From assembly GCF_900143055.1 (NCBI RefSeq), contig NZ_FRCW01000006.1:62001-126000 (forward strand): DNA of 64,000 nucleotides. The letters run 5' to 3'. Position numbers and translations under genes: made by a program. Source of the stretch: Fibrobacter sp. UWR3 (GTDB lineage Bacteria > Fibrobacterota > Fibrobacteria > Fibrobacterales > Fibrobacteraceae). This document shows positions 11,702 to 17,829 of the stretch, in pieces; positions within the stretch are counted from its first letter, which is position 1, and every line of letters begins with the position of its first letter. The notes beneath the pieces are model-generated. The model was not told the DNA's origin. It made no database searches and was given only the letters and a program-made list of their open reading frames with translations.

Positions 11702-12127
11702 TTACAGGCCGTAACGAGCGAAGGCATCTTCCTCGCCCACAATCTTGAAATCGACTATGTACTGCTTCTTCGAAACGGGATTGTTGTATTCAAAGACCTC
11801 GATAACCCAGGCGTTCTTTTCGCACTGGATGAGGAAGCCGGTGCGTTCGAGCGTTCCGACAGTCTTCGTGCCAAGAATCTCGAAACCCACGGGTTTGCCG
11901 TACTGCGCCGCGATATTCTGGAATATCGTGGCATATTGCATCTTGAGGTTCGAAACGTTCACGTTGCCCTTGAGGAAGGGGCTATCGTCGAGCACGGCAT
12001 CGAAGGCCTTGTCGTACTTATCTGCTTTCAGGTGATCGACCATCGCCTTGACGCATTCACTGGAATGCGGGCCCGCAAATGCAAAAGAGCAAAGCAACAG
12101 GGAAAAAATTACAGCCTTGATTTTCAT
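11702..12127 (-). CDS. Small secreted protein, paralogue of the next gene
   Basis: The 141-residue product begins MKIKAVIFSLLLCSFAFAG, a clear signal peptide, so the rest should be exported. The mature part (about 120 residues) has a helical N-half and a beta-rich C-half containing QCEKNAWVIEVFEY, closely matched by NCEKSAWLIVIKEY in the upstream gene; the two are tandem paralogues. The frame is open from 12151, but AAAGGAG lies 5 nt before the ATG at 12127. The overall shape resembles small DUF4878/NTF2-like lipoprotein relatives, but I cannot name a family. Confidence 0.7.
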   Translation of the reverse strand: MKIKAVIFSLLLCSFAFAGPHSSECVKAMVDHLKADKYDKAFDAVLDDSPFLKGNVNVSNLKMQYATIFQNIAAQYGKPVGFEILGTKTVGTLERTGFLIQCEKNAWVIEVFEYNNPVSKKQYIVDFKIVGEEDAFARYGL

Positions 12128-12137
12128 TGTTTCTCCT

Positions 12138-12566
12138 TTATTTTTTATCATAATACTTGAATACGTCTTCCTCGGTCAACACGCGCAACTCACTGAACTC
12201 GCTTTTCCCGTTTGGCGATACGTATTCCTTTATCACAATCAGCCACGCAGATTTTTCACAGTTGATCTGGTAAACAGTCTCGTCATAGGCCTTGGACAGG
12301 CGGCGCGTACGCAGTTTCGTATGGTTCAGCACCTTGCCGTGCTGCTTGACAAATTTCTCGAAATACCCGGCGTACTGCGTAACTCCCACTACCTTTTGTT
12401 CGTCAGCCATGTTCAAGCCATAGTCCAACAGAGCCGTTGCGGCTTCCTTGTACTTGGACTTCTTAAGGAATTTTTCGACCTTATCCATCTGCTTGTCGGC
12501 AACCTCACCGGCATGGCACACGAAAGCCATCAACAAGACATATAACAACGAACGCAGAAATTTCAT
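12138..12566 (-). CDS. Small secreted protein, tandem paralogue
   Basis: This 142-residue protein starts with a signal peptide (MKFLRSLLYVLLMAFVCHAG). It aligns with the downstream protein over the C-terminal half, including CEK.AW and the closing EEDxFxxY. The gene pair is separated by 10 nt and is probably cotranscribed. No Shine-Dalgarno sequence is present; instead TATATT ends 7 nt before the ATG, suggesting a leaderless transcript. Function unknown. Confidence 0.7.
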   Translation of the reverse strand: MKFLRSLLYVLLMAFVCHAGEVADKQMDKVEKFLKKSKYKEAATALLDYGLNMADEQKVVGVTQYAGYFEKFVKQHGKVLNHTKLRTRRLSKAYDETVYQINCEKSAWLIVIKEYVSPNGKSEFSELRVLTEEDVFKYYDKK

Positions 12567-12785: not shown

Positions 12786-13667
12786 TTATGCGAGGCGGGG
12801 CTTTCCCGTCCAACCTAACTTTTCGCGGAGTGCACCCACAAAACCGGTATGGCGCATGCGGATAAACGTCGTCACGGCCTTGCACTCGCTCAGCACGACC
12901 TTCTCGCCCACCTTCATCTCGTAGGCGGTACGGCCATCGAACACGAGGTCAAGCGGGCGCTCCACCGCAGAGACAATTTCAAGCTTCTTGTCGGTAAGCG
13001 AAAGCACGAGCGGGCGCACGGAGAGACTGCTAGGAGCGACGGGCGTGAGCACGACGGCAGGAGTGCTCGGGTGGATGATAGGGCCACCCGCCGCGAGGTT
13101 ATAGGCGGTAGAACCCGTCGGTGTAGAAACCAGCAGGGAATCAGCCCAGTATTCGGTAAGGCACGTGCCGTTGTAGGCCACGTTCACGTTCACCATGCGG
13201 TCAGGCATGTGCGCGCGGACATGGACCTCGTTCAAGACCGTCTGTTTTGCGACCACCTTGCGACCGCGATAAACGACTGCGTCAATCATCATGCGTTCGC
13301 GGGTAGAAAAGTCACCCGCGAGCAAGTCATCGAGCGTTTTTGCAAGGCCTTCCACGCGACTTTCGGCAAGGAACCCCACGCGGCCCGCATTCACTCCGAG
13401 TATGGGAATGTTGTGTCCGAGCGCGATATGCGCGGCAGAAAGCACCGTACCGTCCCCGCCGATAGCGAGAAGCAGGTCCATGCGCGAAAGCCCGGATTCC
13501 TTGATCACGTGAATCGGCTTCTTGGCAAGCCCCTTCAGGGAATCAAGCGCAAAGAATTCCACCTTCGGGTGCGTCGCGGCCCAATCCGCAATCTGGTCGA
13601 GAGCGTTCGCGAGGTCGGCACTCTTGTCCTTGAAACCGACGATTCCAATTTTCGAAAACTTCTTCAT
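12786..13667 (-). CDS. nadK: NAD kinase
   Basis: This enzyme phosphorylates NAD to NADP. The 293-residue protein has the diagnostic GGDGT motif (about residue 69) in AIGGDGTVLSAA, followed by PILGVNAGRVGFLAE, the NE in VLNEVHV, and TPTGSTAYNLAAGGPIIHP near the C-terminal half. The frame is open for 16 more codons upstream, overlapping the preceding gene, but GGGGTG sits just before the ATG at 13667, so I use that start. It is the last gene of a minus-strand run with aromatic amino acid genes, 10 nt after the EPSP-synthase-like gene. Confidence 0.92.
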   Translation of the reverse strand: MKKFSKIGIVGFKDKSADLANALDQIADWAATHPKVEFFALDSLKGLAKKPIHVIKESGLSRMDLLLAIGGDGTVLSAAHIALGHNIPILGVNAGRVGFLAESRVEGLAKTLDDLLAGDFSTRERMMIDAVVYRGRKVVAKQTVLNEVHVRAHMPDRMVNVNVAYNGTCLTEYWADSLLVSTPTGSTAYNLAAGGPIIHPSTPAVVLTPVAPSSLSVRPLVLSLTDKKLEIVSAVERPLDLVFDGRTAYEMKVGEKVVLSECKAVTTFIRMRHTGFVGALREKLGWTGKPRLA

Positions 13668-13677
13668 AGTCACCCCC

Positions 13678-15051
13678 CTATTCCTTGCCCTCATTCGCGG
13701 GAGCCTCAGCGACAAGCACCTGCTTCAGCTTTTCGACAACGCCCGGGAAAATCGCCTCGACTGCATCTGCATTCGCCACCGGTTCATCGTTCTCGAGGGC
13801 AAAAGAAAGCACACTAAGCGCAAGCCCCGCCTCGGGTGAATTTCCGCCGTCAAAGTCGCTCCCGTTCACGATGGTTTCCATCCCGCGAATAACGAGCCCG
13901 TCATCGTACACGCCGACTTCCACGCCGGTCTTCCGCAGGTTTTCTGCCAAGAAGTCGTTTGACACGCGCATCTCGGAGCGAATTTCCTTCGGGATACGGA
14001 GGATGGTTTCGCCCTCGGCAAAGCACGCCGCCACCGCGAGGAACGCATATTCCGAAAGCGACGTCGCTACGGTGTCTTCGCCAAAGCGCCTGCCCTGCAG
14101 CCGCTTGCCCGCTTCCATCGGGTAAATTTCCACATCGCCATACACGTCGCCGAACTTTTCCCTGCGGGTTACGGTCTCGATGTTTGCGCCCATGCGCTTG
14201 AGGCAAGTGAGCGCCCCCGCACGGGTGCTGTTCAGGTCCACGTTCAAAAGCTTTACCACATTGCCCTTGGGCACCTTGCCGATGGTCGTCAGCAAGGCAA
14301 ATGCCGTCGCCTCGGTCGTATCGCCCGGCACGTAGTAATCGCGCCCGGTAATCACGCGGGTTTCCGCAAGTTCCGTCATCTGGGTGCGTTCAATTTTCTT
14401 GCCCTGCGCCATCATCAGGCGGCGTTCGAACTCGCTCAGTTGCTCCATGCCGCGACCCTCGTAACGGAGGGGCACGCCAAAGTACATGAGCATCTTTGTC
14501 CACTGGTCATGAACCAGCGAACGTTCCTCGAAGCTCACGTACTCGCCACGCACCAGCGTGCGGAGCAGCACCCTGTTGCGCATAATAAACGGCACGTTCC
14601 CGAGCGAATCCTTCTTGAGCGCGGGTTCTTCGGGCGCAAAGCGGAACACGAACTTCGCGGGAGCATCAGTTTCGACATTGACCTTGAAATACTTGAGGAG
14701 CATCGCCTTCACGGCGACAATCTTCTCGATGCCGTCCCTGTCGGGTTCGGCTGCAAGCGTATAGACCTGCTCGGAATCCTTGCTCGCGAGCGTCCACAAA
14801 AGTACGTTCTCCTGCTCCGGAAAATCATACGGAAGCATCGACGGGAGCGCATACTGGAAGCCCCTGCCGTCAAGCACCAGCTGGTGCCCGTGCAGTTCAT
14901 AGCGGAGCCCGAATTCGGCGAGGGCCTGCGCAAAACGTTCTGAACCGCTGGCCCAGGCAAAATCGTCGAGTACGGTGCGCCCGTTTACCAACAGGCCCAT
15001 CAAAAGCGTAAGGTCCATCCGTTCCCTGTCGGGATTCAACGCAAATTCCAT
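13678..15051 (-). CDS. EPSP-synthase-like protein without canonical active-site motifs
   Basis: At 457 residues the protein has the size and C-half pattern of 5-enolpyruvylshikimate-3-phosphate synthase: VPGDTTEATAFALL aligns with the VEGDxSSAxxFL region, LNSTRAGALTCLKRMGA with the next helix, and LRKTGVEVG with the late LRKxGAEV. The catalytic motifs are gone. LPGSKSxxNR at the N-terminus is replaced by NPDRERMDLTLL; no GNAGTxxR is seen; KExDR and NDHRMAM are replaced by EMRVSND and NSPEAGL. It is therefore probably not a working EPSP synthase, though its place after tyrA and before nadK keeps it in aromatic metabolism by context. Its ATG overlaps the tyrA stop by one base (TAATG). Confidence 0.65.
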   Translation of the reverse strand: MEFALNPDRERMDLTLLMGLLVNGRTVLDDFAWASGSERFAQALAEFGLRYELHGHQLVLDGRGFQYALPSMLPYDFPEQENVLLWTLASKDSEQVYTLAAEPDRDGIEKIVAVKAMLLKYFKVNVETDAPAKFVFRFAPEEPALKKDSLGNVPFIMRNRVLLRTLVRGEYVSFEERSLVHDQWTKMLMYFGVPLRYEGRGMEQLSEFERRLMMAQGKKIERTQMTELAETRVITGRDYYVPGDTTEATAFALLTTIGKVPKGNVVKLLNVDLNSTRAGALTCLKRMGANIETVTRREKFGDVYGDVEIYPMEAGKRLQGRRFGEDTVATSLSEYAFLAVAACFAEGETILRIPKEIRSEMRVSNDFLAENLRKTGVEVGVYDDGLVIRGMETIVNGSDFDGGNSPEAGLALSVLSFALENDEPVANADAVEAIFPGVVEKLKQVLVAEAPANEGKE

Positions 15052-16319
15052 TATCGTTCCTTAACTTCGTAACCCAGGTAACGGAGCAGCTTGACCGCGC
15101 GGGCGGCCTCGTCCTCGGTCTTGAAGGCAATCAGCAATGTGCCCGCTACGTTCTCGCGGACCTTCATGAGTTCAATGTCGCGGATGTTTAGTCCCTCTTC
15201 GGCGAGCGGATGCAACACGCTCAAAAGCGCGCCCGGTTTGTCCTTGAGCGGCACCGTAATCTCGAAAAATGCGGAAGCGGCGTTCCGGCCAGGAGCGAAC
15301 AGGCTCGCACGTCCCTCGTTGCCCGCCTTGAAAATTTCTTCCAGCGAATCGGAACGGTCGGCGCATTTCCCACCGGCTACCGAACCGCGGGTCGCATCGA
15401 ACGAACCACCCGCAGGCCTGCCGTCCTTTACCACGTCGAGTTTCTGCATCGCCTCGATTGTCGCATTCACGCCATCGCGAACCTCGGTCAAGGCTCGCAC
15501 CGTCTCGTCGCGATTGGTGACCGCGATATCGTGCCACATCGCCCACCCGCTTGCCGCAATGCGCGTCATGTCGCGGAAGGCGCGACCCGCATAGTGCTGG
15601 TAGTTGTGTTCGAGCAGGCGGTCCGGAATGCTTGCCGCCAGAGTAGAACTGAGCATCTGGGGCATGTGCGAAACCCACGCCATGGTGCGGTCGTGGTGCT
15701 CCGGCGGGAACACTACGGCAGAGGCCCCGAGGAACTTCACCAGGTCCAGGAGCGGCGCGTACACATTCTCGGCAGTACCCTCGGGCGGACACACAAACCA
15801 GTAGGCGTTCTCGAAAATCGCGGGGTCGTTGAATTCGCAGGTGCGCTTCTCGGAACCCGCCATCGGGTGGCTACCCACGAACCTGAACGGGGCCGGCAGT
15901 TTGGAACCCGCCCTGCAGATTTCGACCTTCGTGCTCCCGATATCGCTCACGAGGCACGCGGCGCCGTTTAATTTTGCGTCGATTGAATTCGCGCCGTTTG
16001 AACCCGCGACGCAATCCTTACCCGCAACGCCGTTAGACAGCGCGGCCTCCTTGACCCACTTCACGTGCGAAAGCGCGTCAATCGTCTTCAAAATATGCAG
16101 AATCGGGCCACACAGCAAAATGAGGTCGCAGTCGCGGGACCATTCTTCCACCTGCGCGTATTCAAAAAACTCGTCCGCTAGTTCCAACTCGCGGGCGCGT
16201 GCAAGCGTCGCGGGCGAGCTCACCGCGCGTATGACCGTCGGGCGCTTCGCCTGCTTGAGTGCAGAAGCGATAGAACCTGCCAGAAGTCCAAAACCCACCA
16301 AGGCTATCCGCTTCATCAT
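15051..16319 (-). CDS. tyrA: Prephenate dehydrogenase with C-terminal ACT domain
   Basis: This enzyme oxidatively decarboxylates prephenate to 4-hydroxyphenylpyruvate for tyrosine synthesis. The Rossmann motif is at the start (VGFGLLAGS, residues 8-16); SDIGSTK (about 125-131), GSHPMAGSE and HDRTMAWVSHMPQ follow in family order. Residues about 345-422 form an ACT domain (ITVPLKDKPGALLSVLHPLA), the usual site of tyrosine feedback. Two low-complexity insertions are odd: about residues 94-120 before SDIGSTK and about 300-340 before the ACT domain. Its start overlaps the chorismate mutase stop (ATGA), so the two steps are translationally coupled. Confidence 0.88.
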   Translation of the reverse strand: MMKRIALVGFGLLAGSIASALKQAKRPTVIRAVSSPATLARARELELADEFFEYAQVEEWSRDCDLILLCGPILHILKTIDALSHVKWVKEAALSNGVAGKDCVAGSNGANSIDAKLNGAACLVSDIGSTKVEICRAGSKLPAPFRFVGSHPMAGSEKRTCEFNDPAIFENAYWFVCPPEGTAENVYAPLLDLVKFLGASAVVFPPEHHDRTMAWVSHMPQMLSSTLAASIPDRLLEHNYQHYAGRAFRDMTRIAASGWAMWHDIAVTNRDETVRALTEVRDGVNATIEAMQKLDVVKDGRPAGGSFDATRGSVAGGKCADRSDSLEEIFKAGNEGRASLFAPGRNAASAFFEITVPLKDKPGALLSVLHPLAEEGLNIRDIELMKVRENVAGTLLIAFKTEDEAARAVKLLRYLGYEVKER

Positions 16320-16591
16320 TCCTCCACCTTGCGGGTCTCTTCCATAATCGTGCGGAAAATATTCACGATAGATTCCGGCGGGAGCGGTCCACCCCCCTTT
16401 ACCGCCTTCTCGGCGACAGCGGCTAGCACCGCCTCTTCGCGGGCAGCGTCGAATACCGGCAGGCCCTTCTCTTTCTTGAGCTTACCAATCTCGGTCGCGA
16501 ATTCCGCCCGCCTGTTCAAAAGCGAGATAATCGTATCGGTGAGTTCATCGATGCGCTTGCGCCAATCGTCTATTTCCATGTGGGAATCCAT
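16316..16591 (-). CDS. Chorismate mutase (AroQ class)
   Basis: The 91-residue, all-helical protein converts chorismate to prephenate. It shows the AroQ pattern: WRKRIDELTDTIISLLNRRAEFATEIGKLK in the first helix (catalytic Arg, then Lys), then PVFDAAREEAVL and a C-terminal helix IVNIFRTIMEETRK. It is the first gene of the run to tyrA, the EPSP-synthase-like gene and nadK. There is no Shine-Dalgarno sequence at 16591; TATCTT ends 7 nt before the ATG (16599-16604), the same leaderless arrangement as elsewhere in this window. An internal ATG (16579) is a possible alternative. Confidence 0.88.
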   Translation of the reverse strand: MDSHMEIDDWRKRIDELTDTIISLLNRRAEFATEIGKLKKEKGLPVFDAAREEAVLAAVAEKAVKGGGPLPPESIVNIFRTIMEETRKVEE

Positions 16592-16806
16592 GTGCCGAAA
16601 GATAGAAAATTGAGGGTAATTTTTAGAAAATGAGGGTATTTTTATGCCTGCGCACGCCCTGCCCCAAAATTCAGCTCAAACCCCTACCCCAAACACGCCC
16701 CGAACCTAGCACACTTGATACACCTCATTCATTTACAACCTTCACACCATTGCGCACCCCACAAATCGAATCTATTTTATTTCTTGTGTATGGGCAGGAG
16801 ATGATT

Positions 16807-17829
16807 ATGAGCATTCTAAAAACACTCACCACTGGAACATTGGCGGTACTAGCCATGGCATCTACCCTCAGCGCAAAAGACTTCAGCGGCGCAGAACTCT
16901 ACACCAATGAAGAATACACCTACGGGAAATTCGAAGCCCGCATGAAAATGGCCGCCGCATCGGGAACCGTGAGTTCCATGTTCCTCTACCAGAACGGTTC
17001 CGAGCAAGCTTCTGCCCAGCGTTGGGTCGAAGTTGACATCGAAGTTCTCGGCAAGAACCCGAACAGTTTCCAGTCCAACATCATTACCGGCAAGGCCGGC
17101 GCACAGGTCACCAGTGAAAAGCACCATAATGTGAGCCCGGCTGCAGACCAGGCTTTCCACACCTACGGCCTCGAATGGACGCCCGATTACGTGCGTTGGA
17201 CTCTCGACGGGCAAGAAGTCCGCAGGACCAACAAGGGCGACAATAAAAACCAGGTGGCGAACCTGATTGGAACCCAGGGCCTCCGCTTCAACCTGTGGTC
17301 TTCCGAAAGCGCCGATTGGGTCGGTCAGTTCGACGAATCCAAGCTCCCGATTTTCCAGTTCATCAACTGGGTCAAGGTCTACAAGTACACTCCGGGCCAG
17401 GGCGAAGGCGGCAGCGACTTCACGCTCGACTGGACAGACAATTTCGACTCGTTTGACGGTTCCCGCTGGGGCAAGGGCGACTGGACCTTCGACGGCAACC
17501 GCGTCGACCTCACCGACAAGAACATCTACTCCAGGGACGGCATGCTGATTCTTGCCCTCACCCGCAAGGGCCAGGAGTCCTTCAACGGTCAGGTCCCGAA
17601 AGACGACGAGCCCGCTCCGGTTTCTTCGAGCAGCGTGACCCCGCCGCCGGAATCCTCCAGCAGCAGCGAGCCGTTTATCCCGCCGATGTCCTCCTCCAGC
17701 GAGCCCATTACGGCCATCCAGCAGGTTCGCACCCCGCAGATGCAGCCGAAGGAAGTCCGCGGCATCGTGAACGCGAAGGGCGCCCACGTGAAGGAAATCA
17801 ACCGCTACCGCGTGAACTTCAAGTACTAG
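16807..17829 (+). CDS. GH16 endo-1,3-1,4-beta-glucanase (lichenase), circularly permuted
   Basis: This secreted enzyme cuts mixed-linkage beta-glucan (lichenan, cereal glucan). Its 340 residues match the F. succinogenes enzyme almost throughout: signal peptide to about residue 23, then KDFSGAELYT, the catalytic WVEVDIEV with Glu75, Asp77 and Glu79, and GLRFNLWSSES. The order is the circular permutation peculiar to that enzyme, with the catalytic strand in the first quarter and FTLDWTDNFDxFDGSRW at the C-terminal side. A Ser/Pro-rich linker (about 270-300) and the conserved NAKGAxVxxxxRYRVNF tail follow. GGAG at 16797-16800 favours the ATG at 16807 over 16801. A longer frame from 16630 is not supported. 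Confidence 0.95.
   Translation: MSILKTLTTGTLAVLAMASTLSAKDFSGAELYTNEEYTYGKFEARMKMAAASGTVSSMFLYQNGSEQASAQRWVEVDIEVLGKNPNSFQSNIITGKAGAQVTSEKHHNVSPAADQAFHTYGLEWTPDYVRWTLDGQEVRRTNKGDNKNQVANLIGTQGLRFNLWSSESADWVGQFDESKLPIFQFINWVKVYKYTPGQGEGGSDFTLDWTDNFDSFDGSRWGKGDWTFDGNRVDLTDKNIYSRDGMLILALTRKGQESFNGQVPKDDEPAPVSSSSVTPPPESSSSSEPFIPPMSSSSEPITAIQQVRTPQMQPKEVRGIVNAKGAHVKEINRYRVNFKY

Follow-up and report, generated by a model that had tools for sequence, protein, structure and literature searches.

The window (the whole 64,000-nucleotide stretch of DNA analysed here) holds a tyrosine operon on its minus strand, in which a relative of EPSP synthase that we name AroX stands between tyrA and nadK. The genes of this locus, and one feature within AroX, are:

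12786..13667, minus strand: nadK, NAD kinase, adjoining AroX downstream (profile matches)
13678..15051, minus strand: AroX, predicted pseudo-EPSP synthase of 457 aa, its start coupled to tyrA by TAATG
14371..14448, minus strand: AroX-specific insertion, approximately residues 202-227, a segment of the form (E/D)xxRR...GxKxER in which Arg211 is invariant (29/29)
15051..16319, minus strand: tyrA, prephenate dehydrogenase, with a weak C-terminal ACT match (profile matches)
16316..16591, minus strand: aroQ, chorismate mutase type II, overlapping tyrA by 4 nt

The AroX frame opens with ATG and runs for 457 aa with no internal stop. At the TAATG junction the tyrA stop ends on the A of the AroX ATG, and the nadK ATG at 13667 follows 10 nt past the AroX stop, bearing out the original prediction of an intact gene coupled to tyrA and followed by nadK. 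The nearest named records belong to Fibrobacter (96% identity), from which we take the phylum to be Fibrobacterota. Across the phylum, aroQ-tyrA-AroX-nadK is the usual order. Of 25 loci drawn from its breadth, 23 have a same-strand TyrA upstream (19 of them within 150 nt; one gap is a run of Ns), 24 have NadK downstream and 20 have chorismate mutase. At 38 loci of named records, TyrA is directly upstream every time, overlapping or at most 5 nt away in 28, and NadK is downstream in 36, the other two showing a contig end and a longer gap. The synteny sets L004-L033 and L034-L071 probably share genomes, judging by equal lengths and identities, and we therefore kept them apart instead of summing them. 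Frames of 844-861 aa in family f2 were considered as TyrA-AroX fusions and rejected, tyrA and AroX being separate overlapping genes there. Beside aroQ, a divergent gene on the plus strand (16630-17829) seems by eye to encode a secreted glycoside hydrolase of the family 16 type, its linker rich in serine. On the minus strand at 11702-12566 are two adjoining small proteins of 149 and 142 aa, mutually alike by eye and with signal-like N termini, for which no family match above cut-off was found. A search with a defence library returned no match.

Family profiles recognize AroX in part. The Pfam EPSP_synthase profile (PF00275) passes its cut-off with E 2.7e-15 over residues 216-442 only, the combined Pfam and NCBIfam signal for EPSP synthase is confined to residues ~211-445, and the best NCBIfam match is the model for bifunctional TyrA-AroA proteins (NF011381, E 2.8e-24). 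The aroA equivalog TIGR01356 scores 84.1 bits, below its cut-off of 287.25. That an EPSP synthase pattern survives in the C-terminal half, as first proposed, is what these profiles see, but the likeness is not confined there: in the structure model (pLDDT 85.4, pTM 0.84) the two-domain enolpyruvyl transferase fold is complete and aligns to EPSP synthases over residues 1-452. Overlay on 3rmt, the kind of check that had been suggested, aligned both domains with Z 33.9 and an rmsd of 3.1 over 393 residues. A profile search of the PDB with AroX gave EPSP synthases 210-228 bits and MurA at most 60 bits, and together with the tree it places AroX closer to AroA than to MurA.

What this fold has lost is its catalytic residues. 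We scored 19 catalytic or ligand positions, applying to the alignment what we take to be the E. coli numbering of the EPSP synthase active site; they include Lys22, Ser23, Arg27, Asn94, Gly96, Arg124, Gln171, Asp313, Lys340, Glu341, Arg344, His385 and Arg386. The AroX of the window keeps none of the 19, whereas the AroA of the same genome keeps all 19; across 29 aligned AroX the number kept is 0-4, against 16-19 in 28 AroA of the phylum and 15-18 in 16 AroA of other lineages. All four motif groups that the original prediction had reported as replaced (SKSxxNR, GNAGTxxR, KExDR and NDHRM) are indeed gone. The positions of Lys22, Arg27, Arg124, Lys340, Arg344, His385 and Arg386 have been lost from 26 to 29 of the 29 AroX. 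Lys411 and Ser170 are weak tests, being missing in most of the 16 other-lineage AroA as well, and the Asp313 position holds D or E in 22 of 29 AroX (Ser in the window protein). Three EPSP_synthase family matches occur in this genome, namely a canonical AroA with all motifs (L001), MurA (L002) and AroX, so that the second, canonical aroA on which the prediction depended does exist. At least three such matches were found in 28 of 30 genomes searched (split pieces counted), indicating that AroX and AroA co-occur. Judged by residue content, AroX is a conserved pseudoenzyme and not an EPSP synthase, and is presumably unable to make EPSP.

Profile A2 finds AroX in 155 of the phylum's 167 genomes, a count that depends on a cut (E<1e-69) of our own choosing, and in 85 of the 89 good-quality genomes (completeness of 90% or more, contamination of 5% or less). 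Because L191, a canonical AroA of another phylum, reached 247 bits with A2 in a local scan, we also ran A3, a profile of the insertion region alone; it detects AroX in 153 of 167 genomes and in 84 of the 89. Run on three other phyla (296, 145 and 145 genomes), A3 gave nothing above 32 bits, on a scale where the 29 AroX score 61-116 bits (local scoring) and some genomes of the phylum just 33-60; L191, the sole inspected outside match to span this profile, is the canonical AroA just mentioned. Twelve genomes have no A2 match at the cut. Four of these, members of the genus or family (G114, G120, G138 and G148), also have no TyrA match, which points to missing assembly; in G001 and G024 the contig ends in or after tyrA, a piece of AroX being visible in G024; and neither AroX (by A2) nor TyrA was found in G003. 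The other five are all the members of family f8, a family that has AroA. Here nadK directly follows tyrA at the only two loci with both genes on one piece (L175 and L176), another gene follows tyrA at L177, the contig ends at L178, and G027 has no TyrA match. The loss of AroX in f8 is a clean absence.

AroX frames are open in nearly all genomes, and over 16 pairs within the genus the median dN/dS is 0.059 for AroX (range 0.022-0.239), 0.067 for TyrA and 0.037 for NadK; AroX is as constrained as its neighbour TyrA. In G160, AroX falls into two weak-scoring pieces with an internal stop, through a frameshift, an assembly error or real decay. Loss of catalytic residues in an intact gene under purifying selection, in a genome with a canonical homologue, is the pattern of a conserved pseudoenzyme, and the prediction of such a protein in the tyrosine operon is supported by the AroA encoded elsewhere, the phylum-wide conservation and the selection on the gene.

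AroX is monophyletic, with SH-aLRT support of 91 in a tree of 80 rows and 96 in a tree of 57 rows (the first without 8 of 88 rows, including three AroX with N-domain deletions, and the second without 23 more). Uniting AroX and every AroA of the phylum in a single clade is rejected (AU p 0.006), so AroX did not arise late by duplication of the working AroA. A sister relationship to the class-level AroA alone is not firmly excluded (p 0.068). The free trees suggest two separate origins for the phylum's working AroA; a single clade is unrejected (AU p 0.54), and we do not claim two. AroX groups with AroA of other phyla at a support of just 66-82, in a sample whose 16 other-lineage AroA were chosen by similarity to AroX, and its branches are long, leaving its exact sister group unsure. 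Sequence and fold probably place it with the class II EPSP synthases, which we take to include 3rmt (Bacillus halodurans), CP4 2gg4 and Coxiella 3roi, and an aroA adjoining tyrA is seen in other phyla. The simplest account starts from an aroA long resident in the operon, which would have lost its catalytic function in the phylum's stem lineage; the position of AroX in the operon would then be inherited from aroA and says little about its present partner.

AroX has also acquired something. An extra stretch of ~20 or more residues is common to all 29 aligned AroX and absent in 44 canonical AroA, the spacing between the FG and GD landmarks being 49-66 residues in the former and 13-31 in the latter. 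Its motif is (D/E)E(L/F)xRR, then a run of basic residues and K.E; of the two arginines, the second (Arg211 here) occurs in every AroX, Glu207 in 24 and Lys219 in 21. The insertion is among the lowest-confidence parts of the model (block means of 54, 64 and 42 over residues 201-230), as may be expected of a segment that becomes ordered on a partner. The original prediction offered that the protein might regulate shikimate flow or have gained another activity; a conserved, lineage-specific insertion agrees with a gained function, and it is retained in genera g2 and g4, where ~75 residues of the N-domain are deleted. AroX without ~75 N-domain residues, roughly one fold repeat, and with the frame open were seen at L130-L132 (G045, G048 and G043), and in the AroX at L136 (G154) an insert of ~155 additional residues separates the N-domain match from the C-domain match. 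In a comparison of 23 AroX, strict or near-strict conservation falls mostly on glycines and structural positions, and on Arg211 of the insertion.

We lean modestly towards the reading that AroX is a former EPSP synthase kept as a non-catalytic partner of an enzyme of its operon, which it would engage through the new segment. Its ancestor would be a bacterial EPSP synthase, probably of the class II type often found beside tyrA, whose active site would have been lost before the phylum diversified while the protein was retained. Produced in step with its operon neighbours, this dead subunit would use the new basic helix to dock on an enzyme of the operon and tune or scaffold the chorismate-to-tyrosine step. 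We propose a partner because of co-translation, the new conserved helix and the want of an obvious conserved cleft set; direct evidence reaches to a protein that is conserved, selected and non-catalytic by residue content, and it would act by binding. TyrA is the leading, though tentative, candidate for docking, NadK a decidedly weaker one, and chorismate mutase or AroA an improbable one. Rate covariation with AroX (partial r 0.38 for TyrA, 0.30 for NadK and 0.24 for AroA) slightly favours TyrA, with values too close to decide and of a size that linkage alone could explain. AroX does not strictly require TyrA as a partner, since in G166 the order is aroQ-AroX-nadK and no TyrA exceeds the Pfam cut-off (21 bits), and in G043 AroX and nadK are together with tyrA on a separate contig; these two exceptions weaken a TyrA-only role. 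The partner model must also accommodate the absence of AroX from f8 and the acid that 22 of 29 AroX keep at the Asp313 position. In the excerpt drawn on here from a transcriptome table of F. succinogenes S85, the chorismate mutase Fisuc_2558 and the prephenate dehydrogenase Fisuc_2559 are up about two-fold, and that excerpt does not mention Fisuc_2560, a candidate for AroX (PMC5442110). A bolder version, in which the phylum's stem lineage gave up the catalytic cleft of an EPSP synthase, a new basic helix (ExxRR...KxE) was gained, and AroX became a phylum-defining binding protein that docks with it on TyrA or NadK and so links tyrosine synthesis with NADP supply, strikes us as rather doubtful.

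Of the competing explanations, the one that survives best, though it is unlikely, is a new enzyme in which the EPSP synthase scaffold has acquired a fresh catalytic set and acts on another substrate. Strong purifying selection, the wholeness of the two-domain fold in the model and the frequent acid at the Asp313 position would all suit it, but no obvious polar cleft set kept phylum-wide was found among the 23 AroX, and the loss of ~75 N-domain residues in g2 and g4 ill fits an active site shared by two domains. It is less probable again that the genome's own AroA has AroX as its regulatory subunit, in a heteromer like those of other dead-paralogue pairs: the aroA gene lies elsewhere in the genome, f8 has AroA without AroX, and the covariation of AroX with AroA is the weakest of the three tested, even though the two proteins co-occur and a MurA2-MurA1 assembly appears among the PDB titles. 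A decaying remnant of the old aroA, preserved by nothing more than its location in the operon, would explain the long branches and a position that is that of aroA in the tyrA-aroA operons of other phyla; this very improbable reading is largely contradicted by a dN/dS of 0.06 in the genus, by the open frames and by a new conserved insertion common to AroX. That AroX is a true, very divergent EPSP synthase, as its fold and operon position might suggest, is the least credible of all, given seven key positions lost in nearly every AroX and the canonical AroA present.

Several known systems offer points of comparison for a non-catalytic AroX. With class II EPSP synthases, its closest PDB relatives, it shares the two-domain fold over residues 1-448 (Z up to 33.9) and, as seen elsewhere, the proximity to tyrA; unlike them, it is without the catalytic and ligand residues, carries the insertion and exists alongside a separate AroA. 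The bifunctional TyrA-AroA proteins (NF011381) likewise pair TyrA with an EPSP synthase domain, whereas here the two are separate chains, with TAATG coupling between their genes, and the residues of the AroA part mark it as dead. The trypanosome AdoMetDC prozyme is reportedly an inactive paralogue retained as a partner; it resembles AroX in having been kept, and differs in that its partner is the active paralogue, whose activation is said to have been shown. In the portion of a published account used here, the DHQase domain of Candida albicans Aro1 has active-site substitutions and is inactive in assays, a separate enzyme can supply the step, and the dead domain mediates the homodimer, its deletion giving no growth defect (PMC9074039). 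That example shows how a shikimate-pathway domain can be kept for its structural part once its activity is gone (PMC9074039). The likeness to AroX lies in a dead shikimate-pathway domain whose chemistry is available from another enzyme; Aro1 is unlike it in being a multi-enzyme of which this is one domain, at a different step and in a eukaryote (PMC9074039).

AroX is apparently a pseudoenzyme derived from a herbicide target and retained from a time before the phylum diversified. On its residues it is a real conserved pseudo-EPSP synthase, pathway pseudoenzymes as such being already known; our literature search did not find an EPSP synthase treated as a pseudoenzyme, or such a protein. The worry voiced at the outset, that the gene would be annotated simply as aroA, proved moderate: TIGR01356 gives it 84 bits against 287, but the Pfam EPSP_synthase cut-off is passed. 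Counting PF00275 genes in these genomes would yield one aroA too many, and a glyphosate or pathway model that took the gene at the expected tyrA-operon position would have picked the wrong one. The natural loss in f8 and the gained motif make the question of a partner testable. Separately, the AroA of outer families (L112, L114, L115 and L117-L120) have no Arg100 equivalent in 6 of 7 cases and group beside an archaeal AroA with a support of 84-85; they may be EPSP synthases of another type that behave differently towards glyphosate.
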